Shown here piece by piece: positions 6,138 through 32,999 of a DNA stretch of 64,000 nt (position 1 is its first letter; every line of letters starts with the position of its first letter). Where the stretch lies: NCBI GenBank assembly GCA_016932575.1, contig JAFGCO010000002.1, positions 62,001 through 126,000 of the forward strand, written 5' to 3'. A program made the position numbers and the translations under genes. Under the pieces are notes generated by a model. The model did no database searches and was not told the DNA's origin. It saw nothing but the letters and a program-made list of their open reading frames with translations. Source of the DNA: a bacterium. Lineage in GTDB: Bacteria; Zhuqueibacterota; QNDG01; JAFGCO01.

Positions 6138-6337
6138 ATAACTTTATAATAATATTTATATCTTGTTTTTCAATATTGTTTTTATGAGGGTTATGCTATT
6201 TCTAGATGACCATTTGTTTTTGATTCACATACGGAATGACTATAAATTTACTGCTGATGCATGATATAAAGGTATATTGATAATTCCTGAATACTGTGAA
6301 CATCAAAAGGAAATATTTTAAAAGTATTGACCAATCA

Positions 6338-8491
6338 ATGAAAACATCTAACTTTAATTTCTTGTGCAGTATGTTTTTGATCTGTCTGATTGAAATCAAT
6401 ACGGATATCAATGCGCAAACCTGCTGGTACGTGGATAATGCAGCCATCGGTTTGAACAACGGATCATCCTGGGATAATGCCTGGCCGGGTTTCGCCTATA
6501 TTCAGTGGAACACTGTTCAGCCGGGTGATATCCTGTATATCAGCGGTGGTACAACTGAGAAAACCTATTATGAACGTCTGTCGATCGTAGCCAGCGGAAC
6601 CGAAGAAAATCCAATCATCATCAAAGTCGGTCATGAACCCGGACATGCAGGAAATGTGATCATTACAAATGATGGCCCCCTGGGCGGGATTTCGATTATT
6701 TACCGAGACTATATCACAATAGATGGAAACAGGAATGGAGAAAGAAAACTGATTGTTCAAAATTGCACAGTACCCGGTATAAAAGTATACGGCGCTTATG
6801 GGATCAAATTAAGCCATCTCGAGATCCATCATAATGGAGATGAAGTGGATTGGGATAACAGTGGAATAACGTTTACTGCTACCGGCTATGTTGAACCCAG
6901 ACCGAATCTCGAAATTTGTTATTGCCATATTCATCATAACTGGCAGGACGCTATCTCCGGTTTCGGCCCGATCGCCTCCGGTTTCGGTTATATTTCAATT
7001 CATGACAATGAAATATCCGATGTTGTTGATGACGGATTTGAGTGCGGGTCCGGCGGTGTCGATTTTTATAACAACAGCATGCATGATAGATCTTACGACG
7101 GCGGAGACGGCCATCCGGACGGCGTCGCGTTCAACGGAGCGGAATATTACCGGGTTTATAATAACCGTTTTTACAACTTCAGGCGCGGGACCGCTTATAT
7201 CAATTATGAGCCGTTTTATAATACCAGTCCTCCGTCACCGCGTCCGGGAGATCATGTATACATTTACAATAACCTGATCTATGAAGAGGAAATCATTCCC
7301 ACCGGATTTATCCCTTCCCATTACACATTTTATACACCCAATCCCTACCGGTCCGGCCGGCCGGATGGTATTTATACAGACATTGACAGCGCCAGGGCAT
7401 TATTCCATCACATGATAGAACAGGATTATATTGGTACCGACAGTTATATTCTGGACAATTTTCGCAATTTGCCCGATTATGTCGATATGGAACTGGATCC
7501 AATATATGAAAATCATCAACAAGAAATTTATCAGATTGTCGTGAGTTATGAAGATGTGGGCTCTTCACTTGGAGGAATATCGTTCGGGGGAAGTGATATC
7601 ACAACAACCTATTTATCCGATATTATTATCGCCAACAATGTCATGGTGAATTTGCCGGCAAGGGGATTTGGAATCAGCTGTAATAATCACGACAGCGAGA
7701 ATCTGAACAATATCATCGTTGCGAATAATATTGCGCTTAATTGTTACACAAACGGAGGCGGCATAGCAAGCAGTGTCGGAGGTATATCCGATAATAGTCT
7801 GATCGGATCTTATGGTTCAGATGCAAAAATCGTCTATGACAACAACATCATCTTTCAGGGTAATCAGGGCTGCAGCGCCATGCGTTATAATGATCACTTT
7901 ATTGATCATTATGAGGATTTTGTAACGATATACGGCTTAAACGTTCATGGTGCTAATATCGATCCGTCTCTGAATGGAGACTATAAGCCTTATTCACAAT
8001 CGAGTCCGGCTGTGGACAACGGCATTAATTTAAGCGCGATTTTTACAACCGATATTGATTGTGGTTTAAGACCCTATGGCAGTGGCTGGGACATTGGTGC
8101 GTATGAATTTGGATCATCTCCCGGAAATATTGTCTCCGTAAAAATTAAAGTTTTCATGGAAGGTCCCTTCAATATCGGCTCTATGAATACGGATCTGCAA
8201 ACCGGCGGCCATCTCCCCCTGCAATCCCCTTATGATGACACTGAAGTCTCTGCCATACCGGAAAATGTGGTGGACTGGGTGCAGGTGGAATTGCGGATAA
8301 TGGCGGATGAATCCGGTGATAATTACACCAAAAGTGTCTTTTTAAGAAACGACGGGATGGTTATCGACCAGGACGGATCAGACACCGTATCGATTGAAGC
8401 ACCGGAAGGGGATTATTTTATTGTGGTCAGGCATCGGAATCATCTGACTGTCATGAGCAATGTCGCTATTCATTTAACATCGGAATTGTAG
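6338..8491 (+). CDS. Secreted right-handed beta-helix protein with shared C-terminal module
   Basis: About 717 residues from the ATG at 6338, which gives a clean signal peptide ending near INAQ; a GTG at 6296 in frame would add 14 residues, and neither has a good ribosome site. Next comes the N-terminal block of DUF1565/choice-of-anchor-Q beta-helix proteins (WYVDNAA, SSWDNAWPG, PGDILYISGG). Irregular NN-containing beta-helix coils such as YNNRFYNF and IANNVMVN run to about residue 560. The choice-of-anchor end (CGLRPYGSGWDIGAYEFG) follows at about 580-600. The last 115 residues are the module shared by all eight proteins of this cluster. The fold is that of pectate-lyase-like polysaccharide lyases, epimerases and binding proteins. 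No catalytic residues could be assigned, so activity on a polysaccharide is inferred. First gene of the operon. Confidence 0.8.
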   Translation: MKTSNFNFLCSMFLICLIEINTDINAQTCWYVDNAAIGLNNGSSWDNAWPGFAYIQWNTVQPGDILYISGGTTEKTYYERLSIVASGTEENPIIIKVGHEPGHAGNVIITNDGPLGGISIIYRDYITIDGNRNGERKLIVQNCTVPGIKVYGAYGIKLSHLEIHHNGDEVDWDNSGITFTATGYVEPRPNLEICYCHIHHNWQDAISGFGPIASGFGYISIHDNEISDVVDDGFECGSGGVDFYNNSMHDRSYDGGDGHPDGVAFNGAEYYRVYNNRFYNFRRGTAYINYEPFYNTSPPSPRPGDHVYIYNNLIYEEEIIPTGFIPSHYTFYTPNPYRSGRPDGIYTDIDSARALFHHMIEQDYIGTDSYILDNFRNLPDYVDMELDPIYENHQQEIYQIVVSYEDVGSSLGGISFGGSDITTTYLSDIIIANNVMVNLPARGFGISCNNHDSENLNNIIVANNIALNCYTNGGGIASSVGGISDNSLIGSYGSDAKIVYDNNIIFQGNQGCSAMRYNDHFIDHYEDFVTIYGLNVHGANIDPSLNGDYKPYSQSSPAVDNGINLSAIFTTDIDCGLRPYGSGWDIGAYEFGSSPGNIVSVKIKVFMEGPFNIGSMNTDLQTGGHLPLQSPYDDTEVSAIPENVVDWVQVELRIMADESGDNYTKSVFLRNDGMVIDQDGSDTVSIEAPEGDYFIVVRHRNHLTVMSNVAIHLTSEL
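8195..8460 (+). repeat. C-terminal module DNA, copy near-identical to 17191-17456
   Basis: This stretch encodes most of the C-terminal module of the first secreted protein. By hand alignment it differs from 17191-17456 at about 26 of 266 positions and includes an unbroken identical run of 61 bases. The upstream parts of the two genes are not alike, so the module was copied on its own. Confidence 0.8.
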
Positions 8492-8499
8492 GAAACCAT

Positions 8500-11400
8500 A
8501 TGAAACAGAGATTAAAAATCATGCATAAACTCTTTTTTATCTATTTTCTCATTATCCTGACGGGATTTGGTATCATCGCGCAGGACATTATTCCCGAAGA
8601 CCGTAGAATCGACTGGAATCCCGGCATTCCTGGAGGCATTCCCGGTTATCCTGTGGGGGTGAATGCAGTCGATTTTGGTGCCGTGGGAAACGGCATTATT
8701 GATGATACACAGGCGATTCAGAATGCAATTAACGCCTGTGGTGCCATGGCAGTAACAGCCAGGGCGTCAGATCCAGATGCAGGATATGCAATTTATTTAC
8801 CGGCTGGCACCTATTTAACAACAAACCGTTTGAATCTGAATCACTCTGGAATCGTGCTGCGTGGCGACGGTCCGAATCAAACGAGGATCCAATTTAATTC
8901 AGAAAATACAAGCACTGCGATTATTGGAATTTTTTCGACCGGAGGATCCTATACCCAATATATTAAAAATATTATAGATGGCGCTGTAAAAGGATCGACC
9001 TCAGTTGTTCTGGATGAGGCAACCGGTGTTACAGAAGGCAGCATCTGGCTTTTTGATCAGTTGAATGACGGGGAGATTGTCACTCATATTGGCGGAGGGG
9101 GTGCAGCCACCTGGTGCAGCCGTGAGAATGGTACACGTGCCATGGGGCAAATTGTGCAGATTACTGCAGTCAACGGAAACACTGTTTCTTTTGAACCTCC
9201 ACTCTATCTCGATTTCAACGCCAGTCTGAGTCCCCAGGCCATGAATTTTATCAGAAGGCCCATTTTTAATTCAGGAATCGAAGATCTCTGCATCGAGCAG
9301 ATCGGCAGCAATGCCCGTAACAATCTGACCCTTGAAACAGGTGCTTTCAACTGGATCAGGAATATTGAATCGATCAATTCAAATGAGGACCATGTCAGCT
9401 GTCTGTACAATTACAGAAGCACAATACGGGACAGCTATTTTCATCACGCATCCAGTCATATGGGCGGCCATGGGTATGGTGTCAAATTGGGCCTTACATC
9501 AACTGCCTGTCTTGTGGAAAACAATATCTTTTATTATCTGCGGCATCCATTGATGACCTGCTGGGGCGCGGCTGGTAATGTCGTCGCATATAATTATTCG
9601 GCTTATGTATTTATGCGGTATGAGGACTATGAATGGGCCTGTTCGGATTTAATCGGCAGTCACGGCGCCTATCCGGTCATGAATCTTTTTGAAAGCAACT
9701 GGGGTCAAATGATCGATAATGATTATTACTGGGGCACTTCCGGGTATCAGGTTTATTTCCGTAACCGTTCCGCCGGCTACCAACACAACAAGGAAAACCG
9801 TTTTCTGGCAGTCACATTTGAAAAAGGAAATTTATACGGCAGTGTCATCGGAAATGTATTGGGCGTTCCGGTCGACAACTATCCATCCCTTCCCTATTAT
9901 GAGATTGAAGGAATTGAAACAACCTCTCAGACACCCGCTATCTATCGTCTGGGTTATTTATCGGTCAGTGACGGCGATCCCGACGACAATGATCCCCAGG
10001 TGAAGGCTACACTCCTCCGCCATGGCAACTACGATTTTGTGACAAAACAGGTTTTTTGGGATCCTGAAATTCCGAATCATAATTTACCGACCTCCCTTTA
10101 TTTGCAGTCGAAACCGGGTTTCTTTGGAGAACAATCCTGGCCTTGCATCGGTCCGGATGTATCACCCATGATCAACAAATTGCCGGCTCAATTAAGATTT
10201 GAACAAAACTATCCTGATTCACCCCGGAAGCCATCGAACCTTGTGGCCGAAGCCGTGTCTTCGACTGAGGTCACGCTTACCTGGCAGGATCACGCCATCT
10301 CTGAAATCGGATTTATCATTGAGCGCAGCCCGGATGGGGTGACTTTTCAAGAAATTACAACATTTGCAGGCTTAAATGATAACTATTTAATTCATCATTA
10401 TGTCGATTCCGGATTAAGTGCGAGTACAGCCTATTGCTATCGAATCTGTGCCTATAATGATCATGGCCATTCGGATTACACAAACATCGCCTCAGCGATA
10501 ACGGATGACGGATCATCAGTCGGACCTGTGCTATTCTGCCGGTTCGAAGACAGTATCGCCGATTCAAGTGACCATGCCTATCCGGCACAAGCCAGTGGTG
10601 ATCCGGATTTTACAAACGGAGTCAGCGGACGGGCGATTAATCTGGACGGGGACGGCGATTGTGTGGCCTTCAACTGGGATAATCCGATCGAAGGTTCTGA
10701 TCAGTCATTTACCCTGGCTGCCTGGGTAAATCCCCGGAATATCACGGGCAACCGATGGGTATTCGGAGAACATTACGGATATCGGAATTTTATATTCGGG
10801 CTGAATCAGGGACAGATAACCATCAAATGGCGTTACACCGATCACTCAGGTGAAATCGGAACATACATGCTGAAATCATATGAAAATCTCATCCCCGGCC
10901 AATATCATCATATTGCGGCTGTTTATAACGCGCAATCAAAAACCGTAAGCATGTTTCTTAACGGCTCCCGGATCCGATATGATATTGCTTCCCAGCCATT
11001 CGGTATTCGAAGTGTCAATACACTTTATATCGGTCGGGGAACCGAAATCAATACAGTTGAATATTTTGACGGCAGGATCGATGAAACAAAAATCTATGAT
11101 GTTGCACTTTCTCCTTCAGAAGTTGAAATGCTGGCAATTCTGCAAGTGAATCTTCAGATTAAAATCTTCCTCGAAGGCCCCTACGGTACAGGCAGCATGG
11201 AAACCGGACTGCAGACAGGTGATCATTTGCCCCTGCGGTCTCCCTATGATGATGAAGAAGTAATCTCCTTTCCCGACAATATTGTGGATTGGATGCAGGT
11301 AGAGCTAAGAACCTCGGCAGATGGATCGGGTGACATTTACACAAAAAGCGCTTTTTTAAAAAATGACGGCTGTGTGGTGGATACGGATGGTTCGGACACA

Positions 11401-11505
11401 GTGACAGTCGAAGCACCCGAAGGTAACTATTATATTGTCGTCAGGCATCGAAATCATTTGGCGATTATGAGCAATCAACCCTTCCATTTGAGTTCAAGTT
11501 TATAA
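8500..11505 (+). CDS. Secreted pectate-lyase-superfamily protein with FnIII, LamG and shared C-terminal module
   Basis: 1001 residues. A signal peptide of about 28 residues (ends IIAQ) is followed by DIIPEDRRIDWNPGIPGG, a leader often seen before Pectate_lyase_3 (PF12708) domains. The family signature is at about 50-130: VDFGAVGNGIIDDTQAIQNA, an IYLPAGTYL strand, and LRGDGPNQT. The beta-helix extends to about 560. An FnIII domain lies at about 575-665 (PSNLVAEAVSSTEVTLTWQD). A LamG/concanavalin-like domain lies at about 670-880 (FTLAAWVNP, IYDVALSPSEVE), usually a carbohydrate-binding fold. The shared module occupies about 885-1001. Probable polysaccharide lyase or hydrolase acting outside the cell; substrate not determinable. 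It starts 8 bp after gene one with GGAAACCAT before the ATG. Paralogue at 17675-20602. Confidence 0.85.
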   Translation: MKQRLKIMHKLFFIYFLIILTGFGIIAQDIIPEDRRIDWNPGIPGGIPGYPVGVNAVDFGAVGNGIIDDTQAIQNAINACGAMAVTARASDPDAGYAIYLPAGTYLTTNRLNLNHSGIVLRGDGPNQTRIQFNSENTSTAIIGIFSTGGSYTQYIKNIIDGAVKGSTSVVLDEATGVTEGSIWLFDQLNDGEIVTHIGGGGAATWCSRENGTRAMGQIVQITAVNGNTVSFEPPLYLDFNASLSPQAMNFIRRPIFNSGIEDLCIEQIGSNARNNLTLETGAFNWIRNIESINSNEDHVSCLYNYRSTIRDSYFHHASSHMGGHGYGVKLGLTSTACLVENNIFYYLRHPLMTCWGAAGNVVAYNYSAYVFMRYEDYEWACSDLIGSHGAYPVMNLFESNWGQMIDNDYYWGTSGYQVYFRNRSAGYQHNKENRFLAVTFEKGNLYGSVIGNVLGVPVDNYPSLPYYEIEGIETTSQTPAIYRLGYLSVSDGDPDDNDPQVKATLLRHGNYDFVTKQVFWDPEIPNHNLPTSLYLQSKPGFFGEQSWPCIGPDVSPMINKLPAQLRFEQNYPDSPRKPSNLVAEAVSSTEVTLTWQDHAISEIGFIIERSPDGVTFQEITTFAGLNDNYLIHHYVDSGLSASTAYCYRICAYNDHGHSDYTNIASAITDDGSSVGPVLFCRFEDSIADSSDHAYPAQASGDPDFTNGVSGRAINLDGDGDCVAFNWDNPIEGSDQSFTLAAWVNPRNITGNRWVFGEHYGYRNFIFGLNQGQITIKWRYTDHSGEIGTYMLKSYENLIPGQYHHIAAVYNAQSKTVSMFLNGSRIRYDIASQPFGIRSVNTLYIGRGTEINTVEYFDGRIDETKIYDVALSPSEVEMLAILQVNLQIKIFLEGPYGTGSMETGLQTGDHLPLRSPYDDEEVISFPDNIVDWMQVELRTSADGSGDIYTKSAFLKNDGCVVDTDGSDTVTVEAPEGNYYIVVRHRNHLAIMSNQPFHLSSSL

Positions 11506-11513
11506 GGGAAATA

Positions 11514-14196
11514 TTGATACGATGTCAAAAAACAATTTCGTTGAACTCATGGATCGTCCTTGCAGCATTCCTTCTTGGGTTTCAAATTGTCTTCTCTGGA
11601 TCCGGATTCGTACACATCAATCCGACGGTCGATTTGAGTCACACCAACACCAGTCAATGGCAGACAATCGATGTTTCTGCCGATGTGCCGGCCGGAGCCA
11701 CAGGTGATTCAAGGATACACCAATTATACAGATGTTGATTTTTATCTTGTCGGTTTTACAACAACTTCCGATGCTTCCGCGCCAAATTCTGTCACTGAGG
11801 TGAATGATGGCAACGGTGCCGATATCGATACACATTATATCACCAATTGGATGCAAGTGAACTGGAATGAAGCCGATGATCCTGAAAGCGGTATCGCCCG
11901 ATATTTTTATTCCTTAAGCACAACAGAACAAGACGCAAATATCATCGATTGGACCAATGTGGGATTGAACAAAGAAGTAACAGTCACCGGTCTTGATTTG
12001 ACTGTTGGGACCACCTATTATTTCAACGTAAAAGTTGAAAATACCCAGGGTTCTGAAAGCACGATCACATCATCGGATGGATTTCAAATTATCCAGGATC
12101 CTTCACCGCCCAGCACCGTTGGGCAAGTTCGTGACGGCGCTTCGACAACTTCGGATCAAAGCACAACATATTCGCGATCACAATTATCATTTAATTGGAA
12201 CGCTTCCACTGACAATGAAAGTAAAGTCTTCAGATATATATATGCGGTTGGCACTGCCGAAGGTGCTGCCAATATTGTTGACTGGACCGATAACGGACTC
12301 AATACAAACGTGACGCACACCGGTTTGACATTGATACCGGGAACGAAATACTACGCAGCAGTCAAAGCATTGAACACCCAAAGTATGGAAAGCGAAACTG
12401 TCAATTCAAACGGCATTCTTGTAATCAACGATCTCTCACCGCCTTCGGCCATTGTTGAATTGAGGGATGGGCATGCAACAGACAGCGACATTGCTTACTC
12501 GAATATTGAAATAAGAGCCAATTGGGATGCTGTTGATGATCCGGAAAGTGAAATCACAAATTATTATTATGCGATCGGCACAACCCCGGGGGGGACCGAC
12601 ATTGTGGACTGGACAGATAATGGTCTCTCGACATCAATGGTGCATACTGGATTAATTTTGACTCGCGGTACCACCTATTACACCGGTGTGATCGTTGAAA
12701 ATGAGTCAGGGCTGATGTCCGCCATCACATATTCCGATGGAATCACCATTCAATATTTATGTACGAATGAAGTCGTTGCAAACAGCGGAAGCGCTTTTGA
12801 TATTCAGACAGCGATAAATCAGGTCCATGCTTTAGGCGGAGGGACTGTCCATATTCCTGAAGGTGATTTTGAGTTGTTGAATACAGTCAGTCTATTTTCC
12901 AATATCACGCTCATGGGCGCCGGAATCGGCAAAACAGTGCTTCAGCATGCCGGCAATGCGCATTTTTCCTGTGAAACAGGCGGGCACACAATGATACGAA
13001 TTTCAGGGATATCATTTTATGGCAATCAAATCATCTATTATCGAAGCGTCGTAGATTTCAGAATCGATCACTGCTATTTTAAAGCAAATCAAAACACGTC
13101 GAACTTGATCAATTTGAATAATATGTCGGGCTGTCCGTCGATTCGCGGCGTAGTGGATCACTGCACTTTTTGTGAAACGGATTATACGACAAATTTTTGC
13201 ATTCATTGCGGTCCCAAATATTGGACGGAAGGAGAAAGAGGCATCGAGGTGCTGGGAAGTGCCGAAGCCATATTCATCGAAGACTGTTATTTCGACCACA
13301 TTTACAATCACCCGGTTGGTGCATTTAATGGATCCAACTATGTTGTTCGTCATTGCACATCAATCTGTTGTGGAAGCTGGGACGGACATGGCCCCGGATA
13401 TGAATATATCGACACCCAATATCACGGCACGCGCTGCTATGAATTTTACAACAATCAATTCATCGAGACCGAGGAAAGCTCACAGGGAGAAAGATGGTCC
13501 TCGCTTGGGCTTCGATCCGGCAGTGGTGTTATTTATAACAACACATTCATTTATTTTCGAAATGCTGTGAGATTTACATTGGAACCCGGATCTGTGACAG
13601 CCAGCGGGGGTGAGCATCCCGCTTTTGATCAAATCCATGATATGTGGCTATGGAACAACGACCTGATCGATACGGATGAACTGATCCTATTTGATGGAGC
13701 AAATGCTGCAGATTTCATTCAGGAAAACCGTGATTACTTTCTGCGGTCGCCTTCGCTTGCGCAGGATGGTTTTAAATACATCCCTTACCCATATCCTCAC
13801 TATCTTGTGATCGGAGATCCGGTTTATCAAAATACGGTTCGTCTTAAAGCAAGAGTATACCTGGAGGGAGCTTATCTCAATGGTTTGCAGAACTGTCAAT
13901 TGCATCAATCCGGCCATATTCCCATTAGATCTCCCTATCGAGATACGAGAACCGTTTCAAGTATCCACCCAAATATTGTAGACTGGGTGGAAGTTGAATT
14001 ACGGACGGATCCTTCCATCGCCGGTGAAAAATATCAAAGTGCATTGCTGAGAAATGACGGTCAAATTGTAGACATTGATGGAAGCACCGATTATTTGACG
14101 TTTGATACACCCGATGGATTGTATTACATCGTTGTGCATCATAGGAACCATCTGGCCGTGATCAGCGACAAAGCAGTGCATCTGTCGAATCAATAA
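11514..14196 (+). pseudogene. Secreted FnIII x3 plus beta-helix protein with shared C-terminal module, frameshifted near its N-terminus
   Basis: The signal peptide and first strand (SLNSWIVLAAFLLGFQ to DVSADVPAGATG) lie in the frame starting at TTG 11514. The rest, from VIQGYTNYTDVDFY to the end at 14196, lies in another frame. The join is near 11700-11710, where ACAGGTGATT would become ACAGGTGTGATT if a GT unit were restored, giving the continuous strand PAGATGVIQGY. The start is also doubtful: an ATG at 11522 reaches the signal-peptide frame only if the A6 run were A5. After the break come three FnIII-like repeats of about 105 residues, each with DDPES or DNES and a VDWT/IDWT motif. A beta-helix (QTAINQVHALGGGTVHIPEG) and the shared C-terminal module follow. 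Either a broken gene or two indel errors. Confidence 0.7.
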
Positions 14197-14233
14197 TTTA
14201 TATCGATCCATTTAAATAAAGAAGGGAATGCCT

Positions 14234-15727
14234 ATGAATCACAAAATCAATCGTATCTACATCGTTCTAATCATCACTTTATACATGATGATACACACTG
14301 TACATGCACAGATTATCATCAATCATACCTGCACGGATATCACAGACATTCCGCAATGGGCGATCGAGACAGCAAAAACAGATCTTCATATTGCTTATGC
14401 CCACACATCTCATGGCCGCCAGCCGGTGGAGGGGATGACCTACCTGGTCGATTTTGCAAACAGCAACGGGTCGGGATTATTTCTGCCTTCGGATATTTTT
14501 CAATGGAATGAAGGAGGTGTGGACGATGCTCTGGACCTTCGCAATTACGATGGTGTCCAGCAAAATCCCCGCACACTGGTTCCGGGCGGCGCAAAAGACC
14601 TGGGGAATCCGAATGGTACGCAGTGGGCCATTGATACCCGAACCTATTTAAATGATCCGGCCAACTCGGACATCAATGTCATCATATGGAGCTGGTGCGG
14701 ACAGCTGTCCGGTATATGGGCACACCGGTACGGGTGGCCGGGATGGGAGTCCTGGGATGAAATCAATCACTGTTTCCATCTTTTTGACGACATTGCCTAT
14801 GACATCAGTTCCGGCAGCGATTTACGTCTTCAATTAGAGGATATCGGCAGTTTTGTCGGATACTATCTGCTTCAGATGTCTGAACTTGAGCAGGATTATC
14901 CAGAAGTACGCTTCATCTATATGACGGGCCATCTGGATGGAACCGGTTTGGATGGTATACTCAACAAACATAATGAAATAATCTGCGAATACTGCTGTGA
15001 ATACAATAAGATTCTATATGATTTTGCCGATATTGAAAGCTATGATCCGGATGGAATCGACTTTATATCTCAGTTGGGCGATGATGGTTGCAACTACGAT
15101 GCAAATAATAATGGGATCACGGAAACCAATGGTGCCAGTGCGGCCCTGCCAATCAATGGGGATGCTAACTGGGCCATCGAATGGCAGGATTCACATCTGC
15201 AATTCGATCCGAACCTGGATGAAAATGAGGACGGAATTACCGATTCACAGCCGGATGCAGCATGGTATTACAGCACCTCTGCGCATAGCCAGGCGTTGAA
15301 TGCCAATTTAAAAGCATATGCTTCGTGGTGGCTCTGGGCACGCCTTGCAGGGTGGGACGGAACCATTCCGGTTGCAGTCTCTGTGAAAGTCTTTTTAGAA
15401 GGCCCCTGCAATGCCGGATCCATGGAAACCGGACTGCAAACCGGTGATCATTTGCCCCTTGAATCCCCCTATGATGAGGCGGAAGTATCTGTCATTCCGG
15501 ACAATGTGGTGGACTGGTTGCAGGTGGAATTGCGGACGCTTGCGGATGGATCCGGTGAAAATTATTTAAAAAGCGTTTTCCTGAGAAATGATGGCATGTT
15601 GGTAGATCTGGACGGATCGGACACAATATCTATCAATGCGCCGGAAGGGGATTATTTTATTGTGGTCAGGCATCGGAATCATTTGGCTGTGATGAGTGAT
15701 GGACTTGTTCATTTATCTGAGGAGTGA
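14234..15727 (+). CDS. Secreted protein of unrecognised family (HTSHG type) with shared C-terminal module
   Basis: About 497 residues from the ATG at 14234, which sits six bases after AAGGGA; the ATG at 14228 has no spacing. A signal peptide ends at VHAQ. The central 350 residues belong to no family I can name, but they match the protein at 20639-21937 block by block. The shared blocks are HIAYAHTSHGR, DINVIIWSWCG, RFIYMTGHLDG, ILYDFADIESYDPDG, and AHSQALNANLKAYASWWLWARLAGW. Conserved His, Ser, Asp and Cys residues in short loops after beta strands suggest an SGNH/GDSL-like or other hydrolase fold, for example an esterase removing acyl groups from a glycan. That is a guess. The shared module occupies the last 115 residues. 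The stop overlaps the next start. Confidence 0.7.
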   Translation: MNHKINRIYIVLIITLYMMIHTVHAQIIINHTCTDITDIPQWAIETAKTDLHIAYAHTSHGRQPVEGMTYLVDFANSNGSGLFLPSDIFQWNEGGVDDALDLRNYDGVQQNPRTLVPGGAKDLGNPNGTQWAIDTRTYLNDPANSDINVIIWSWCGQLSGIWAHRYGWPGWESWDEINHCFHLFDDIAYDISSGSDLRLQLEDIGSFVGYYLLQMSELEQDYPEVRFIYMTGHLDGTGLDGILNKHNEIICEYCCEYNKILYDFADIESYDPDGIDFISQLGDDGCNYDANNNGITETNGASAALPINGDANWAIEWQDSHLQFDPNLDENEDGITDSQPDAAWYYSTSAHSQALNANLKAYASWWLWARLAGWDGTIPVAVSVKVFLEGPCNAGSMETGLQTGDHLPLESPYDEAEVSVIPDNVVDWLQVELRTLADGSGENYLKSVFLRNDGMLVDLDGSDTISINAPEGDYFIVVRHRNHLAVMSDGLVHLSEE

Positions 15728-17481
15728 TGAGATTGAATGATCATTTTTTATTAGAAAAAATCCGACACATTCGGATTTTTATTCTCACTGCTTTATTGAT
15801 GATTTCTATCTCTTTGCAGGCGTTTCACTACATTCGTGCTGATGCGACAGGCAATAATGACGGATCAGACTGGAATAATGCATATACAACTTTACCGGCC
15901 GAGCTGGAAAGAGGCGCTACATATTATATATCTGATGGAAATTATGAAAGCTATACATTTGATGACGCGGAAGGTGAAACTCAATATATAAAAATAAAAA
16001 AAGCAATTGAAAGTGATTATGGGACAGACGCTGGTTGGCAGAGTAGTTATGGAGATGGCCAGGCAGTATTTGATATATTGACATTCAGCACATCCTACTG
16101 GATATTTGACGGACAAAAAAGAGATGATTGGGAAAACGGGTATGGTTTTAAGATTAAGCCTGATGAATCTTATCAATTTAATGCTACAAAAGGCATACGG
16201 CTTTCATGGACAGACCATATTACTTTTAGATACATTGAGATAGAACAATTTGGACAACAGCAATTCGAAGTCAAGCAGGAAGGTTTCTATGGTCCAGCTA
16301 CTTCAGAAATATTAATACAATATTCATATGTCCATGATTTTATGGGAAATGGTATATTACTGCATGGAGAGAATAACATAGTTGAATATAGCAAGATTGC
16401 AGATAGTTTTGGATATGGTGGTACCCACTCTCAAGGGATTCAATTATTTTCTAATTCAGTTGTAAATATGACAATTCGATATAATATTTTTCAGGATATG
16501 AGAGGGACTGCTGATATTGCTTCTGCTTGGGGTACTGATGGATTAGATATATATGGCAATATTTTTTATAACACACCTGGTTCTAGTGGTTATACAAGCC
16601 CGGCAGCAATACATGACCTATCCAGTGGTCCAGAGGAGACAGGACTTACAAATGCGCATATTTATAATAATTTATTTTATAGATTCAATGAGGATCATGT
16701 TAATGTAAATCATAATCATGCGGGTGTATTGATTACTTATACAAGCGATCCTTCATCAAATCTTATATACAATAATCTTTTTGTAGATTGCGAAGATGTT
16801 AATTTAGACAGCCACTACAACTCAGATCTTGATATATATTACAGTAATTCTATACATGATTATAACTATTTAATTAATTCTGATTTGGTATGGAATGCTG
16901 ATCCTGAAGTTCATGATTTAATGCTTACTGGACCTGATCCCATAATTGATGCTGATAATGGTGATTTCAGATTAACTGCAAGCGCTCCAGCAATAAACGC
17001 TGGTTTGGATTTAACAACTCTTGCTGGATTTAATCCAGATTCAGTCGATCCTGACCAAAATATTCGTGGTGCTGATGGTTTTTGGGATATCGGCGCCTAT
17101 GAATATGTTTCAGCAGCACCAGACCAAATCGCGTTACAAATCAAAACCTTCCTCGAAGGTCCCTACAATGCCGGAACCATGGACACAGGACTGCAGACCG
17201 ATGGCCATCTGCCCCTGCAATCCCCTTATGACGACACTGAAGTCTCTGCCATACCGGAAAATGTGGTGGACTGGGTGCAGGTGGAATTGCGGACTCATGC
17301 CGATGAATCCGGTGATAATTACACCAAAAGTGTCTTTTTAAGAAATGATGGGATGGTCATCGATCTGGACGGATCAGACACCATATCGGTCGAAGCACCG
17401 GAAGGGGATTACTTTATTGTGGTTAAGCATAGAAATCATCTGAGTGTGATGAGTGACGATCCTGTAAATTTGAATCAGTAA
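15727..17481 (+). CDS. Secreted beta-helix protein with AT-rich core and shared C-terminal module
   Basis: About 584 residues. The ATG at 15727 overlaps the preceding TGA and follows GAGGAG; a GTG at 15724 is the alternative. The signal peptide ends near SLQA. The front has YIRADATGNNDGSDWNNAYTTL, typical of choice-of-anchor-Q beta-helix proteins. Coils rich in YNN follow, then IRGADGFWDIGAYEY at about 450. The shared module follows. The core is clearly more AT-rich than its neighbours: 18 of 60 G+C at 16321-16380 against 30 of 60 at 10561-10620. The module DNA at 17191-17456 has the usual composition and nearly matches 8195-8460, so an acquired front was fused to a resident module. The stop TAA (17479-17481) spans the junction with the inserted MITE-like element. 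Confidence 0.8.
   Translation: MRLNDHFLLEKIRHIRIFILTALLMISISLQAFHYIRADATGNNDGSDWNNAYTTLPAELERGATYYISDGNYESYTFDDAEGETQYIKIKKAIESDYGTDAGWQSSYGDGQAVFDILTFSTSYWIFDGQKRDDWENGYGFKIKPDESYQFNATKGIRLSWTDHITFRYIEIEQFGQQQFEVKQEGFYGPATSEILIQYSYVHDFMGNGILLHGENNIVEYSKIADSFGYGGTHSQGIQLFSNSVVNMTIRYNIFQDMRGTADIASAWGTDGLDIYGNIFYNTPGSSGYTSPAAIHDLSSGPEETGLTNAHIYNNLFYRFNEDHVNVNHNHAGVLITYTSDPSSNLIYNNLFVDCEDVNLDSHYNSDLDIYYSNSIHDYNYLINSDLVWNADPEVHDLMLTGPDPIIDADNGDFRLTASAPAINAGLDLTTLAGFNPDSVDPDQNIRGADGFWDIGAYEYVSAAPDQIALQIKTFLEGPYNAGTMDTGLQTDGHLPLQSPYDDTEVSAIPENVVDWVQVELRTHADESGDNYTKSVFLRNDGMVIDLDGSDTISVEAPEGDYFIVVKHRNHLSVMSDDPVNLNQ
17191..17456 (+). repeat. C-terminal module DNA, copy near-identical to 8195-8460
   Basis: This is the second member of the near-identical pair, about 90% identical by hand count. 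Its G+C content contrasts with the AT-rich DNA immediately upstream, which marks a recombination or gene-conversion boundary near 17130. Confidence 0.8.
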
Positions 17482-17633
17482 CTGAACTTTGGCAAATTAA
17501 ATATTAGGCAAAAGATGTCATTCACGAATGATTTTGTTGGGGAGCTACTACTTCACCCCACACCTGGATTATCGCTTAAAAATTGCGAGGATGACGAAAA
17601 GGAAGGTAAAAATAAAATTTGCCAAAATTCAGT
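17481..17633. mobile_element. MITE-like non-autonomous element with 18-bp terminal inverted repeats and 5-bp target duplication
   Basis: The left end ACTGAACTTTGGCAAATT (17481-17498) is the inverted complement of the right end AATTTGCCAAAATTCAGT (17616-17633) with one mismatch. The 153-bp element is flanked on both sides by CAGTA (17476-17480 and 17634-17638), the signature of transposition with a 5-bp target duplication. It has no open reading frame. It separates two genes of the operon that otherwise lie almost end to end. Removing the element and one CAGTA copy would join the upstream frame to a TGA overlapping the next ATG at 17675, the same ATGA coupling seen elsewhere in this window. 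The transposase that mobilised it is not in the window. Confidence 0.75.
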
Positions 17634-17674
17634 CAGTACAAGACTTTCTCAAATGATTCGATAGGAGCGATTGA

Positions 17675-20602
17675 ATGAAACTCAAAATCTGTATATTCTT
17701 ATTTATAATGATAACGACCCGGACTGTATTTTCTCAGGACATCATTCCAGCGGATCGCAGAATCGACTGGGATCCGGGAATACCCGGTGGCATTCCAGAT
17801 TATCCAGTGGGTGTCAATGTAATGGATTACGGCGCAGCAGGTGATGGGATCACAGATGATTTCCAGGCATTTATGGATGCGATTGATGCCTGTCCGGAAC
17901 AGAATGCGGTTTTTATCCCGTCCGGCACCTATTTGATATCCGGGCGGGTGGACATTCGTAAATCCGTTGCTTTACGCGGTGCAGGTCCGGATGCGACTTT
18001 TTTGAAATTTGAAAAACAACCCGGGGCTTTGGAACATCAAAGAACCAATATCTGGATCGGGCAAAGGCTTCTTGGATTTTCGAGTCTGGTCACAAACGGA
18101 TGTATCAAAGGCTCATATCAAATTACCGTGGATGATGCCTCCGGATTTGCGATCAATGACCTTGTTGAAATCCGTCAGGACAATGATGAATCAATCATGG
18201 CCCGTCCCATTGTACCGCCCTCTGAAAATGATAGCTGGGCCGAGGATCATTGGGGATGGCGGGCGGTTGGACAATTCCTTTTAATTACAGATATTGATGA
18301 ATCTTCAAACATTCTCACTTTTCACCATCCCCTCTATTTCAACTACAATCTCTTCATGAATCCTGAGTTGACCAAGCGACTCAATACAACATGGAATGCG
18401 GGTGTTGAAGATCTCCATATCGAACTTGTGGTGGATGCGAACGGTTACTACGGTAATATACATCTGGATGGAAGTGTGTACTGCTGGGTAAAAAATGTGC
18501 GTGGCTATAAATGTTCAAGATCCCATATTGGTATTTGGGGTGGGCTGGGAAATGAGATAAGGGAATGCTACTTTGAATACAGTCACGGATATGCCGGCGG
18601 TCAGGGCTATGCGGTGAATTTGATTGACCGTGCCTCCGATAATTTAATTGAAAACAATATTTTTGACTATTTGCAGGGCAAGATGATGACCGCAGTGGGT
18701 GTATGCGGTAATGTGTATGCATACAATTACGGGCGTGTGACATTGGATGACCTGGGCGATTATGAGGATATGCATGCGGATCTGTCCGCGCACGGCCATC
18801 ATGCGAATATGAATCTGTTTGAGGGGAATTCGTGTAACAGGGCGCATGTCGATACCTACTGGGGAAGCAATGCGAACTATATATTTTTAAGAAACAAAAT
18901 GCTTTGCCCTGATGGATATATTCGAAGCAGCGTGCCTGTCGGCATTGAAAAAAACAATCCGGAGATGACTTTTATTGCAAATGTCCTGCATCATGAAAAT
19001 TCACTGGAAGACCGGATTGTATGGGTATTTCCGGATGATCCGGATGATTTCAGCGATCCGGATCTGACCATGAGCACCCTGATTTGTCATGGAAATTATG
19101 ATTACATGAGTGAGAACGTACAGTGGGATCCAGATATTGAAAATCATGATATTCCGGATTCGTATTATCTGGACAGCAAACCCGATTTTTTCACGAACGC
19201 GCCCTGGGGCGATACGCCCTGGCCCAATATTGGCCCGGATCTGCTGCATGCCCGTATTCTGCCCGCCCAGCAAAGATTTTGCGATCTAAACGGGATCACG
19301 CCTCCGTCTCCACCTTCCGGCTTATCTGCGGTGGCGTTAAACAATCAAATCACTTTGAATTGGTCAGATAACAGTCATGATGAACAGGGATTCCGTATCG
19401 AACAAAGTATGGATGGGAATCATTTCAGTCGCATCGCGGTCACGATGGCCGATTCTTCTCATTATACAGTCACCGGACTTACACCCTGGACAACTTACAC
19501 TTATCGTGTTTGCAGTTTTAATGACATCCCTGGAAATTCTGTTTATTCCAATACCGCTTCCGCGACCACACAAGAAGCGGTTCCATTAGAACTGACCGCC
19601 TGGTTTCCTTATAACGGCGATGCGAATGATGCCAGTTCCAATGATTATCATGGTGAAGTTCATGGTGCTGTTTTATCTTCAGGACATTCCAGCCAGTCTT
19701 ATTCATTTGACGGGCTCGATGATTACATAGAATCACCCGGATGGGATCCGGATGGCTGGGGACCGATCACGTCTCCGGTCCATGGGGATAACCAGGCGTT
19801 TACGGTAACAGCCTGGATCAACCCTGCTGATGCCGACAAAAACAACTGGGTGTTGAGCGATAATTCCACATGGGGAGATTTTGTATTTGGTGTTCATGAT
19901 TCCCGACCGTTTATCCGATATTTCTGCAATCTTATCGAAGGAGGATATCAGAGATATATGCTGGAAGCGGTCGAAACAGCAACTGTGGAAACTGGTGTTT
20001 TTACACACATTGCCGCGAGCTACGATCCATTGAACAATATTGTCCGATTGTATTTAAATGGACAACAAGTCGCGATCGACAGGGTGAATCACCCTCTCGG
20101 TCCTGTCAGTTTCGATCATCTCTTTGTCGGATGCGGAGGATATTCAACCGGTGTGATCGAATATTTTGAGGGGATGATTGATGACGTACGGATCTATGCC
20201 TCGACATTATCTCAGACACAGATTCAAAGCCTGGCTGAGACTGATGTAAAGCTTCAGATTAAAATATTTTTAGAAGGACCGTACCATTCAGGAACGATGG
20301 GAACCGATCTGCAGACAGGCGGCCATATCCCCCTGCAATCTCCGTACGACGCCACCACCCTCTCTTCGATTCCCGCGGATGTTGTGGACTGGGTATTGGT
20401 TGAAATTCGGTCACACGCGGACGGATCCGGAGACAATTACAGCCAGAGCGCGTTCGTCAGACAGGATGGCATGGTTTTGGATATAAACGGATCCGAATAT
20501 CTTTCCATGACAGCGCCGGAAGGCAATTATTATATCACAATCCGGCATCGTAATCATTTATCGGTGATGAGCGATGTTCCGGTATTTCTCAGTGCGAACT
20601 GA
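17675..20602 (+). CDS. Secreted pectate-lyase-superfamily protein with FnIII, LamG and shared C-terminal module
   Basis: 975 residues, the paralogue of the protein at 8500-11505 with the same domain order. The signal peptide is about 21 residues (ends VFSQ), followed by DIIPADRRIDWDPGIPGG. PF12708-type signatures are MDYGAAGDGITDDFQAFMDA, FIPSGTYLISG and LRGAGPDAT. The beta-helix runs to about 540, FnIII lies at about 548-640 (PPSGLSAVALNNQITLNWSD) and LamG at about 645-855 (FTVTAWINPA, DDVRIYASTLSQTQI). The shared module follows to the end. Start ATG after GGAGCGATTGA. Two diverged copies of the same architecture in one operon suggest action on related linkages or on different regions of one polymer. 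Probably extracellular; substrate unknown. Confidence 0.85.
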   Translation: MKLKICIFLFIMITTRTVFSQDIIPADRRIDWDPGIPGGIPDYPVGVNVMDYGAAGDGITDDFQAFMDAIDACPEQNAVFIPSGTYLISGRVDIRKSVALRGAGPDATFLKFEKQPGALEHQRTNIWIGQRLLGFSSLVTNGCIKGSYQITVDDASGFAINDLVEIRQDNDESIMARPIVPPSENDSWAEDHWGWRAVGQFLLITDIDESSNILTFHHPLYFNYNLFMNPELTKRLNTTWNAGVEDLHIELVVDANGYYGNIHLDGSVYCWVKNVRGYKCSRSHIGIWGGLGNEIRECYFEYSHGYAGGQGYAVNLIDRASDNLIENNIFDYLQGKMMTAVGVCGNVYAYNYGRVTLDDLGDYEDMHADLSAHGHHANMNLFEGNSCNRAHVDTYWGSNANYIFLRNKMLCPDGYIRSSVPVGIEKNNPEMTFIANVLHHENSLEDRIVWVFPDDPDDFSDPDLTMSTLICHGNYDYMSENVQWDPDIENHDIPDSYYLDSKPDFFTNAPWGDTPWPNIGPDLLHARILPAQQRFCDLNGITPPSPPSGLSAVALNNQITLNWSDNSHDEQGFRIEQSMDGNHFSRIAVTMADSSHYTVTGLTPWTTYTYRVCSFNDIPGNSVYSNTASATTQEAVPLELTAWFPYNGDANDASSNDYHGEVHGAVLSSGHSSQSYSFDGLDDYIESPGWDPDGWGPITSPVHGDNQAFTVTAWINPADADKNNWVLSDNSTWGDFVFGVHDSRPFIRYFCNLIEGGYQRYMLEAVETATVETGVFTHIAASYDPLNNIVRLYLNGQQVAIDRVNHPLGPVSFDHLFVGCGGYSTGVIEYFEGMIDDVRIYASTLSQTQIQSLAETDVKLQIKIFLEGPYHSGTMGTDLQTGGHIPLQSPYDATTLSSIPADVVDWVLVEIRSHADGSGDNYSQSAFVRQDGMVLDINGSEYLSMTAPEGNYYITIRHRNHLSVMSDVPVFLSAN

Positions 20603-20638
20603 ACTAAAAATCATCTGTTCAAAAAAGGGGGTTATGCA

Positions 20639-21937
20639 TTGAAAGTAATCGAAACTGTCAAAATACGAAAATACTACAGATTTTTCTTGTTATTCTGTAT
20701 GGCCATGCCCGGAGCCTGTAATTTATATGCACAAATCATCATTGACCACACATGCACGGATATCAATAAAATTCCTGTCTCTGCTATTGAATCGGCCAAG
20801 GATAGCTTGCATATTGCATATGATCATACCTCTCATGGCAGTCAGCTTATTACCGGGATGAATCCACTGGACACCTTTATGGGAGGCCATGGCATTTATG
20901 TATGGAGTGAAGGCGGCGGATCCGGTTTGCTTGATATTGACGATTATTTCAGTCCGGTCAAAGATCTTGGATATGAAACCAGCTGGCCGCCGGCCACCCG
21001 AACGTATCTGGAGAACCCGACCAACGCCGATGTTAATGTGATCATGTGGTCCTGGTGCAATATCTACGGCCATAATATTCAGGGTTATCTGGACAGCATG
21101 GAAGTGCTGATCAGTGATTACGGGCCAGGTGGGACAAAAATCCTGGACGGCACCCGGACCGTACCGGTTACCTTTGTTTTCATGACCGGTCATACAAATA
21201 TGGAAATCAGTCAAAATGAATGGACATTCAATGCCAACAAGCAGATCCGGCAGCATTGCATTGCAAACAACCGGGTATTGTATGATTTCTTTGATATTGA
21301 AAATTATAATCCGGACGGGACTTATTTTGGAGACGGAGATCCTAATACAGCGGATTATGGAACCTATAACGGAAATAATCATCTGGATGATGACTGTTCC
21401 TATGACTCTACAGAAACATCAAGGGGCAACTGGGCGATCGCATGGCAAAGTACCCATTCGCAAGGAGTGGACTGGTATTCCTGTTCTGCGGTCCATTCAC
21501 AGCCGTTAAACGGGAATTTAAAAGCCTATGCCTGCTGGTGGATGTTTGCAAGGCTTGCGGGCTGGATCGGCCCCGACACGGTTTCGGTAAAAATCAAAGT
21601 CTTTTTAGAGGGTCCGTACAACAATGGAACCATGAATACAGATTTGCAGACTGCCGGATATCTGCCTCTGGAATCCCCTTATGATACCACCACTGTCTCC
21701 ACCATTCCTGCGGATGTTGTGGACTGGGTGCAGGTAGAATTGCGCTCAGAAGCGGATGGATCCGGGGACAATTACACAAAAAGTGCATTTTTAAGAAACG
21801 ACGGAATGATTTTGGACGGGGACGGATCGGAAACCATCGCATTCAATGCCCCGGAAAATGATTATTTCATTGCTGTGAAACACCGGAATCATCTGTCGAT
21901 CATGAGTGATAGTGCAGTACTCCTTGAAAAACAATAA
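20639..21937 (+). CDS. Secreted protein of unrecognised family (HTSHG type) with shared C-terminal module, second copy
   Basis: 432 residues from a TTG start at 20639, seven bases after an AAGGGGG ribosome site; the ATG at 20634 meets a stop at once. The signal peptide ends near LYAQ. The central domain matches the protein at 14234-15727 in the same order: IIIDHTCTDINKIP, HIAYDHTSHGSQ, DVNVIMWSWCN, FVFMTGHTNM, VLYDFFDIENYNPDG, VHSQPLNGNLKAYACWWMFARLAGW. It is shorter because the loops between blocks are reduced. The two copies are diverged, so the duplication is older than the module exchange noted at 8195 and 17191. The shared module covers the last 115 residues. An enzymatic role, perhaps esterase-like, is speculation. 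Confidence 0.7.
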   Translation: MKVIETVKIRKYYRFFLLFCMAMPGACNLYAQIIIDHTCTDINKIPVSAIESAKDSLHIAYDHTSHGSQLITGMNPLDTFMGGHGIYVWSEGGGSGLLDIDDYFSPVKDLGYETSWPPATRTYLENPTNADVNVIMWSWCNIYGHNIQGYLDSMEVLISDYGPGGTKILDGTRTVPVTFVFMTGHTNMEISQNEWTFNANKQIRQHCIANNRVLYDFFDIENYNPDGTYFGDGDPNTADYGTYNGNNHLDDDCSYDSTETSRGNWAIAWQSTHSQGVDWYSCSAVHSQPLNGNLKAYACWWMFARLAGWIGPDTVSVKIKVFLEGPYNNGTMNTDLQTAGYLPLESPYDTTTVSTIPADVVDWVQVELRSEADGSGDNYTKSAFLRNDGMILDGDGSETIAFNAPENDYFIAVKHRNHLSIMSDSAVLLEKQ

Positions 21938-21947
21938 TTAAATTCCT

Positions 21948-23801
21948 ATGAGTATTTATTCAGTAAAAATCAACCTGTATCAGTGTATTGCCCTTTTATT
22001 TTTAAGCCTATTTTCACCGGTGATGGCAGCGCTTTATTATGTGGATCTGAATCACCCCAATGCCTCTGATACAAATCCCGGAAACGATCCAGGTGCACCC
22101 TGGGAAACCATTCAAAAAGCCGGCAATACCGCAATGGCAGAGGATACTGTCTATATTAGATCGGGAACCTATAATGAACGAATCATACCTCAGTATTCGG
22201 GCCTGCCGGATCAATTCATCACGTTTATGGCCTATCCTGGGGATTTACCTGTATTGGATGGTACCGGACTTGGAGGCTGGTGGGGTATTTTCAGCATTTA
22301 TGGAAAAGACTGGATTCGTCTTGAGGATTTGGAGATTCGAAGTAACGACACAGGCTGGGGCATTTTGATTGAACATGACGGCAGTGAAGACGCTTCACAC
22401 ATTCAATTACAAAATCTGACTGTGCATTATACAGCAGGAGAATGCATACAAATCAGGGGAAATGCTCATGATATCACAATAACCGATTGTACGGTCCATG
22501 ACGGTTTGGGACCCTATTCCGGCATAGATATATATCGCTGGAACAGCGGACGACCCCATCATGTTACAGTCACAGGCTGTACTGCTTATCTTTTTGATAA
22601 TGGATACCCGGGAGCCGGTATTGGAAGTGAAATGGCTGATGACTTAATTGTAACCGGCAATACAGTCTACAACAGCAAAATCGGCATTGATATTGGAAGC
22701 GGAGACCGGAACATCATCACAGATAATATTATTTATGACTGTGAAACCGGCATAGCACTAAGCTCCAATGAAGATTCGGAGGTTAGCCATAATCTGGTTC
22801 ACGATATTATTGATGAAGGATTTTACAGTTATTACTGGAGTGCCAACGGAGAGGCTCATGCCAGGAATGTCTGGCATGACAATGTGGTTTATAATATCGG
22901 CTGGGGCTTCTATGAAAGCAATGTCAAGGGCAGCAGCGGCAGTGAGGGGCCAACGAGCCATCACCGCTATTACAACAATCTGCTCTACAATATCACTCGC
23001 GGATTCTATTTTAAAGGCACCACAGACCTGAAATTCTGGAACAATACCGTGTACATGAATCATGGCTACAGTGCCGTTCAATTGGTGGATGGCGCCATCA
23101 ATGCAGATATTCGTAACAACATATTGAGTACCAGCGGCAGTGTTTCACCAATCTCAATTGATGGAACATCAGGCACTGGCGCCAATATCGATTATAACTG
23201 CTATCACAATCGTTCCGGCACCTCAGGTGGTCCTGGATCCCATTCTGTATCGGGAAATCCGCTATTTATTTCACCCGCTTCTTCAGATTTCCATTTACAG
23301 CCTGAATCACCGTGCATTAATTCCGGAATCAATTTTTCTGCACTTTTTGTTCATGATCTGGACACGCTTCCACGTCCGATCGGTTCAGAATGGGATATGG
23401 GGTGCTATGAATATGCCTCGCCTTATGTTCTGATCTCAATGAAAATTTTTCTTGAAGGACCTTATCTTTCCGGAATCATGTCAACAGATCTGAGCACACA
23501 GGATTATATACCAACAACATCACCCTACAGTGAAGATCCAAGAGAAGCCTCTGCCATTCCAAACGATATTGTCGACTGGGTACTGATTCAACTCCGAACA
23601 GATATAGAGGGTCCGGTGATTTTGTCAAAAAGTGTTTTTTTGAAAAATGACGGAAATCTTGTGTCTGATGATGGTCTGACATCTGAAATCATTTTAAATG
23701 TACCTGAAGGTGATTATTTCATTGTGGTGAAGCATCGTAACCATTTACCGGTCATTACACCTGAAGCGGTTCATTTAAACGCATCAGAAGTCAGCCTGTA
23801 A
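21948..23801 (+). CDS. Secreted DUF1565-type beta-helix protein with shared C-terminal module
   Basis: 617 residues with a signal peptide ending near PVMA. The N-terminal YYVDLNHPNASDTNPG, APWETIQKAG, EDTVYIRSGTYNE series is the DUF1565/right-handed beta-helix entry block. Coils with NN turns (YNNLLYNI, FWNNTVYM, RNNILST) run to about 430, and the choice-of-anchor-Q end PRPIGSEWDMGCYEYA lies near 490. The C-terminal module is present in its most diverged form, with SPYSEDPREASAIPNDIVDW and a few extra terminal residues (ASEVSL). It starts 10 bp after the previous gene with a weak ribosome site. It is the last gene of the row and converges on the sensor kinase 32 bp away. No terminator is visible between them. 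Confidence 0.8.
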   Translation: MSIYSVKINLYQCIALLFLSLFSPVMAALYYVDLNHPNASDTNPGNDPGAPWETIQKAGNTAMAEDTVYIRSGTYNERIIPQYSGLPDQFITFMAYPGDLPVLDGTGLGGWWGIFSIYGKDWIRLEDLEIRSNDTGWGILIEHDGSEDASHIQLQNLTVHYTAGECIQIRGNAHDITITDCTVHDGLGPYSGIDIYRWNSGRPHHVTVTGCTAYLFDNGYPGAGIGSEMADDLIVTGNTVYNSKIGIDIGSGDRNIITDNIIYDCETGIALSSNEDSEVSHNLVHDIIDEGFYSYYWSANGEAHARNVWHDNVVYNIGWGFYESNVKGSSGSEGPTSHHRYYNNLLYNITRGFYFKGTTDLKFWNNTVYMNHGYSAVQLVDGAINADIRNNILSTSGSVSPISIDGTSGTGANIDYNCYHNRSGTSGGPGSHSVSGNPLFISPASSDFHLQPESPCINSGINFSALFVHDLDTLPRPIGSEWDMGCYEYASPYVLISMKIFLEGPYLSGIMSTDLSTQDYIPTTSPYSEDPREASAIPNDIVDWVLIQLRTDIEGPVILSKSVFLKNDGNLVSDDGLTSEIILNVPEGDYFIVVKHRNHLPVITPEAVHLNASEVSL

Positions 23802-28695: not shown

Positions 28696-28729
28696 TAAAA
28701 ACTCCTTTCATATTTAAGCAGATTTATCC

Positions 28730-31006: not shown

Positions 31007-31043
31007 ATTGATCTCCTTTTTCAATCAATCCTGTGTTAATTAA

Positions 31044-31664: not shown

Positions 31665-31673
31665 AAAAACTCC

Positions 31674-32981: not shown

Positions 32982-32999
32982 AAAAACCTCCAATTATTC

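Follow-up and report, generated by a model that had tools for sequence, protein, structure and literature searches.

Eight tandem genes in a 64,000-nucleotide stretch of a bacterial genome (contig JAFGCO010000002.1, positions 62,001 to 126,000, referred to below as the window) encode proteins that end in one common domain. According to its predicted structure, this domain is an X-module, an immunoglobulin (Ig)-like beta-sandwich whose kinship with the X-modules of cellulosomes is seen in the predicted structure only. Outside the window's genome, the domain is regularly followed by a dockerin, which the window proteins lack. The dyad probably belongs to an X-dockerin/cohesin docking system of the Fibrobacterota-Chlorobiota-Bacteroidota (FCB) phyla, the receptor of which would be delivered by the type IX secretion system (T9SS); the window proteins would then be X-only derivatives.

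Eight tandem genes share one C-terminal domain

The eight open reading frames (ORFs) are located on the + strand between positions 6296 and 23801. The intergenic distances are, from gene 1 to gene 8, 8, 165, 31, -4, 193, 36, and 10 bp. Because of this spacing of 8 to 193 bp, with one overlap, the row is operon-like. It comprises the following genes:

Gene 1, 6296..8491, + strand: signal peptide, beta-helix-like front, choice-of-anchor Q region, X-module at 8123-8488; the ATG at 6338 is the more likely start, rather than 6296
Gene 2, 8500..11505, + strand: signal peptide, pectate-lyase-like region (PF12708), FnIII, LamG (PF13385), X-module at 11137-11502
Gene 3, 11671..14196, + strand: FnIII repeats, weak pectate-lyase match, X-module at 13828-14193
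Gene 4, 14228..15727, + strand: signal peptide, unnamed HTSHG front, X-module at 15362-15724
Gene 5, 15724..17481, + strand: signal peptide, beta-helix (PF13229), X-module at 17119-17478 (the domain used for structure prediction)
Gene 6, 17675..20602, + strand: signal peptide, pectate-lyase-like region, FnIII, LamG, X-module at 20237-20599
Gene 7, 20639..21937, + strand: signal peptide, HTSHG front, X-module at 21572-21934
Gene 8, 21948..23801, + strand: signal peptide, beta-helix (PF13229), choice-of-anchor Q region, X-module at 23418-23798

The domain copies of the row have 120 to 127 residues each and are 43 to 76% identical in pairwise comparison. They share 26 invariant columns, including E-G, S-P-Y-D, V-D-W, D-G, and H-R-N-H-L, and within the window these landmark motifs co-occur only in the eight ORFs. 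An initial annotation, made from the window sequence alone, had proposed such a row with a common C-terminal domain on at least three unrelated kinds of front, and both proposals are borne out. The fronts are of the beta-helix type (genes 1, 5, and 8), the pectate-lyase-like type with FnIII and LamG (genes 2 and 6), the FnIII type with a weak pectate-lyase match (gene 3), and the unnamed HTSHG type (genes 4 and 7). All eight proteins had also been described as secreted. A signal-peptide-like N-terminus is present in seven of them, but the listed frame of gene 3 lacks one. A signal-peptide-like stretch lies upstream of gene 3 in another frame (11540-11700); since it is out of frame with the body of the protein, it points to a frameshift near position 11700, which may be genuine or an artifact of the assembly.

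In genes 1 and 8, a choice-of-anchor Q region (NF041518) directly precedes the X-module; in gene 5 this region is weak. Choice-of-anchor Q regions are named for standing before varied anchors, and here the region is the neighbor of the X-module and not the module itself.

The HTSHG fronts (14228-15361 and 20639-21571) are exported and have no match in Pfam or NCBIfam. The family occurs in 27 of the 82 genomes of the window's phylum, where its members mostly carry a T9SS tail. Its conserved HTSHG, WSWC, and TGH motifs suggest an uncharacterized hydrolase.

No credible match to the shared domain was found in Pfam, NCBIfam, or the PDB sequences, in agreement with the initial annotation, which assigned no function to its motifs, and a literature search with its motif strings retrieved nothing relevant. 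The window's 4.41-Mb genome contains 18 copies, the eight in the row and 10 more. By profile search, the domain was found in 33 of the 82 genomes of the phylum. A wider scan detected it in KSB1, Calditrichota, Ignavibacteriota, Bacteroidota, Chlorobiota, Kapaibacteria, and Cloacimonadota, and also in the groups Kiritimatiellota and Verrucomicrobiota of the Planctomycetota-Verrucomicrobiota-Chlamydiota (PVC) bacteria. Weak matches to the last approximately 30 residues (the HRNHL strand) were present in ORFs of approximately 2040 to 2200 aa in five Bacteroidota genomes (G210, G269, G313, G380, and G388), which also hold full copies.

The domain and its tail form an X-dockerin unit

Of 118 domain copies from genomes other than that of the window, 95 are followed by a tail of 61 to 125 residues (approximately 90). 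The remaining 23 comprise 11 copies with no tail, two with a short and four with a longer one, three in the middle of a protein (Kiritimatiellae), and three cut by a contig end. The tail contains two D-x-N-x-D-G-x-V-x-x-x-D loops, which are calcium loops of the dockerin type, and it often ends with V-P. Its profile matches dockerins among the PDB structures (E = 2.6e-5), and Pfam Dockerin_1 matches 31 of 66 members.

The domain of gene 5 was modeled as a beta-sandwich with a helix (24-27) between the first strands (pLDDT 96.2). When the domain was modeled together with its tail (locus L064), a single rigid unit was predicted (pLDDT 98.0, pTM 0.93). The ten best Foldseek matches of this unit were all type II X-module-dockerin chains (E = 1e-5 to 3.5e-4). 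In VIA-align, the eight best matches were X-dockerin entries with Z scores of 10.0 to 11.2 over 141 to 150 residues, and the next one was an unrelated chain with a Z score of 6.2. The identity of the X-module emerged only once the dockerin tail was included in the fold search. A cellulosomal X-module has been described as a seven-stranded fold resembling carboxypeptidase D domain II, in which a small helix separates strands 1 and 2 (PMC5141474). The gene 5 model and the further matches of the dyad model agree with this topology. Since domain plus tail superposes on X-dockerin dyads and the topology fits, we named the shared domain X-module.

Cohesin-dockerin docking is best known from the cellulosomes of Gram-positive bacteria, which attach via type II X-dockerins that bind anchoring scaffoldins. 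The predicted FCB dyad resembles the type II X-dockerins of the scaffoldins CipA/CipB of Clostridium thermocellum and ScaA of Acetivibrio cellulolyticus. In both, an Ig-like module with a helix between strands 1 and 2 is followed by a two-loop dockerin, which is packed on the X-module at the C-terminus, and the models superpose with Z scores of 10 to 11. The FCB dyad differs in that no sequence similarity was detected for its X part, its loop between strands 1 and 2 is longer, and it is found on many different exported Gram-negative proteins instead of a scaffoldin; moreover, the window's eight proteins have no dockerin. As judged from sequence and predicted structure, the FCB X-dockerin is a variant of the cellulosome-type dyad, the X-module of which has parted from the dockerin in the window.

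The dockerin is nearly lost from the window's genome

Within the phylum, the X-module and dockerin profiles match an identical set of 33 of the 82 genomes. The 32 related genomes contain 176 X domains versus 167 dockerins, and the two counts are tightly correlated (Spearman rho 0.98). The window's genome is an outlier with 18 X domains versus 2 dockerins, and 17 of its 18 X-modules have no dockerin. In the window itself, a dockerin behind the X-module is absent from all eight proteins: the ORFs stop at the end of the X-module, and the intergenic gaps, none longer than 193 bp, are too short to hold one. Given the matched counts in the relatives and the mismatch here, a near-obligate unit has come apart in this genome. 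Because of this loss, the dockerin was not visible when the window alone was annotated. The placement of the domain at the extreme C-terminus, as described in that annotation, holds for 17 of the 18 copies in the window's genome; in the relatives, however, mostly a dockerin tail stands behind it, and in Kiritimatiellae it is located in mid-protein.

Several loci deviate from the usual arrangement. In the Melioribacteraceae isolate 356-308_093 (L067, L073, L078, and L134), all five X copies seen are without dockerin loops, a possible second case of genome-wide dockerin loss. At L089:2392-4993, X-module, dockerin, and companion (see below) are encoded by three successive ORFs, and thus the dyad is split across two genes. 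The Kiritimatiellae loci L099, L101, and L115 encode very long proteins, of which approximately 2000 residues or more are visible. They contain repeated beta-helix-like regions and an X-dockerin in mid-protein, followed by a pair of similar regions that on visual inspection look caspase/legumain-like; these genomes are without SprA.

X-modules replace T9SS sorting domains

In the window's phylum, homologues of the HTSHG and pectate-lyase fronts mostly end with a T9SS type A domain. All 28 tested C-termini of homologues of these two front types match TIGR04183, and two of them belong to paralogues in the window's own genome, L219 (pectate-lyase front) and L220 (HTSHG front). The type A domain (TIGR04183/PF18962) is similar to the X-module in that it is Ig-like and C-terminal on exported proteins with the same fronts. 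In contrast to this likeness, there is no family match between them: TIGR04183 and TIGR04131 match neither the full window proteins nor 66 modules of relatives, and the T9SS-tail profile built here matches none of 197 X ORFs. The initial annotation had rightly set the shared domain apart from the T9SS domain.

Since the same fronts end with TIGR04183 elsewhere, and since the choice-of-anchor Q region stands before the X-module, the X-module or the dyad fills a sorting or anchoring slot. Because the domain stands at or close to the C-terminal end of unrelated exported proteins and replaces the T9SS domain, the anchoring or scaffold role proposed earlier is a reasonable interpretation and is partly borne out. 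A general stand-alone C-terminal sorting domain is not supported, because outside the window's genome the domain is the X half of a dyad.

The T9SS markers SprA and type A domains match in all 82 genomes of the phylum, and therefore a test of T9SS co-occurrence is uninformative there. Among 296 sampled Bacteroidota, SprA was present in all 41 genomes with the domain versus 228 genomes overall (P = 9e-6, not corrected for phylogeny). It was also found in 15 of 20 further carriers; the five without it are PVC genomes, which were all the PVC carriers (5/5). The co-occurrence check proposed with the initial annotation thus gave a divided result: all sampled carriers of T9SS phyla have SprA, but the PVC carriers do not, showing that the link between the dyad and T9SS is not strict.

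T9SS-tailed companions accompany the dockerin

A gene with a T9SS tail is located directly downstream on the same strand of 34 of 86 readable X-dockerin ORFs versus 0 of 20 X-only ORFs (P = 3e-4), and upstream of X-dockerin ORFs in 8 of 52 cases (P = 0.004), counts in which the loci are not all independent, some sharing one genome. The downstream companions have 274 to 566 aa (median 385). Part of them share a beta-rich front family, which also occurs fused to X-dockerin. In L102, L106, L141, and L109, true cohesins (PF00963) with a T9SS tail adjoin cohesin-X-dockerin genes. In the window's genome, a free-standing dockerin protein of 164 residues is encoded 8 bp from a T9SS-tail companion (C18:8247-9845), and this locus also holds the only remaining X-dockerin gene of the genome. 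Thus, the companion tracks the dockerin and not the X-module. PF00963 matches the window's genome once, on a T9SS-tailed protein of 383 aa, and it detected no multi-cohesin scaffoldin there.

A related arrangement was proposed for Ca. Stygibacter (Cloacimonadota), namely, a cellulosome-like complex of dockerin enzymes and one cohesin scaffoldin of 3,755 aa, the conserved C-terminal domain of which would attach it to the surface (PMC8542988). Dockerin-bearing exported enzymes with a cohesin protein for surface attachment are common to that complex, as described in the passages available, and to the system considered here. Those passages of PMC8542988 mention no X-module; here, small T9SS-tailed companions adjoin X-dockerin genes in several phyla, and the window's genome is without a giant scaffoldin.

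A docking system is the best explanation

We propose that, in most relatives, X-module and C-terminal dockerin form one rigid unit that ends exported proteins in the slot of a T9SS sorting domain. T9SS would place the companion, which has its own sorting domain, on the surface as a receptor, and the X-dockerin protein would dock onto it with calcium, similar to type II X-dockerins on the anchoring scaffoldins of cellulosomes. The companion would be a true cohesin in some cassettes and a protein with a beta-rich, uncharacterized front in others. In the window's genome, nearly all copies have dropped the dockerin and kept the conserved X-module.

Several observations weigh against this docking scheme. 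The outer-membrane crossing of proteins without a T9SS tail is left unexplained by it, and 52 of the 86 X-dockerin ORFs had no visible T9SS-tail gene immediately behind them. Five carriers, all from PVC groups, are without SprA. Cohesin PF00963 is found in 28 of the 33 X genomes versus 42 of the 49 others in the phylum (Fisher P = 1), X and cohesin counts across these genomes are not correlated (rho 0.06), and some X-dockerin genomes are without any cohesin match. When the X-module was used alone in fold searches, weak mixed Ig-like matches were obtained (best Z score, 5.4), and a profile of 102 domains found no X-module chain among the PDB sequences up to E = 5. Sequence divergence from the cellulosomal X-modules is nevertheless compatible with kinship.

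Two partner assignments were not supported. A simple genome-level model with cohesin as the partner found no support because cohesin presence does not track the X domain. The common companion front, which looks cohesin-like by eye, reached hhalign probabilities of 27% and 6% in a profile comparison in which one alignment includes one fragment with M substituted for its first residue, and it matched PDB cohesins only at E = 0.5. Accordingly, we do not term this front a cohesin; this, too, speaks against the docking scheme.

The strongest rival, which we consider possible although clearly less probable than docking, is that the X-module is a further T9SS C-terminal signal read directly by the secretion machinery, with an optional dockerin that was lost here. 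It would account for the replacement of the type A domain on the same fronts, with which the X-module never co-occurs, for SprA in all 41 Bacteroidota carriers, and for the full conservation of lone X-modules at the extreme C-terminus. The Ig-like fold also fits, and the best, although weak, VIA match of the lone domain was the T9SS C-terminal domain of mirolase (Z score, 5.4). However, the PVC carriers lack SprA, and three of them have the module in mid-protein; most copies have a dockerin behind them and thus are not at the extreme C-terminus; the fold match to X-dockerins is far stronger; and the co-occurrence with T9SS is confounded by phylogeny. Somewhat more doubtful is a reading in which X-dockerin proteins without a T9SS tail would exit folded on a cohesin-type companion that has such a tail, carried piggy-back through the pore of T9SS; in the lineage of the window, recognition would have passed to the X-module alone, permitting loss of the dockerin from nearly all paralogues.

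The lone X-modules bear on a third explanation, according to which the module is a mere structural spacer or stabilizer, the lone copies are remnants, and the surface is reached by other means. Cellulosomal X-modules are indeed described as stabilizing the adjoining dockerin (PMC5141474). However, among 29 X-only copies (17 from the window's genome), H-R-N-H-L, D-W, and G78 are conserved at 100% and most other landmarks at 80 to 100%, like in tail-bearing copies. Remnants are expected to decay, but no relaxation of conserved residues is seen, although 17 of the 18 copies in the window's genome are lone; in addition, lone X-modules occupy the slot of a sorting domain. We therefore regard this explanation as unlikely. 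In a quick tree of 130 domains, the X-only copies fall in several places with 17 state changes, most forks being unresolved. Since the dockerin was lost and the X-module is fully conserved, the lone X-module must serve a purpose of its own; most likely, it contacts a partner on the surface or supports export and retention.

Finally, a glycan-binding or adhesive module that holds enzymes to their substrate, as suggested in the initial annotation, would suit the polysaccharide-lyase-like and LamG fronts and the beta-sandwich fold, but it is highly improbable given the lack of a carbohydrate-binding family match, the obligate dockerin partnership in relatives, and the presence of the domain on RHS-repeat and cohesin fronts; nothing that we found points to glycan binding.

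Neighboring genes

Right after the row, a convergent gene (23834-27061) encodes a sensor kinase with regulator-propeller, Y_Y_Y, and histidine kinase domains. Sensors of this type are often linked to polysaccharide sensing. Farther downstream (27910-32993), an MMPL/RND transporter adjoins LolA-like and DUF1302-like proteins, and a second MMPL protein is encoded upstream of the row (2845-5661).

Implications

The data suggest that Gram-negative bacteria have a means of docking enzymes to their surface. If true, a recurrent X-dockerin family with T9SS-delivered companions would provide modular enzyme display for Gram-negative FCB phyla, and it would account for a class of exported proteins in which no known sorting domain is present. 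X-dockerin proteins also raise the question of how the outer membrane is crossed. In one genome, the dockerin has disappeared almost completely while the X-module has stayed intact, which offers a natural experiment on the function of X-modules on their own.

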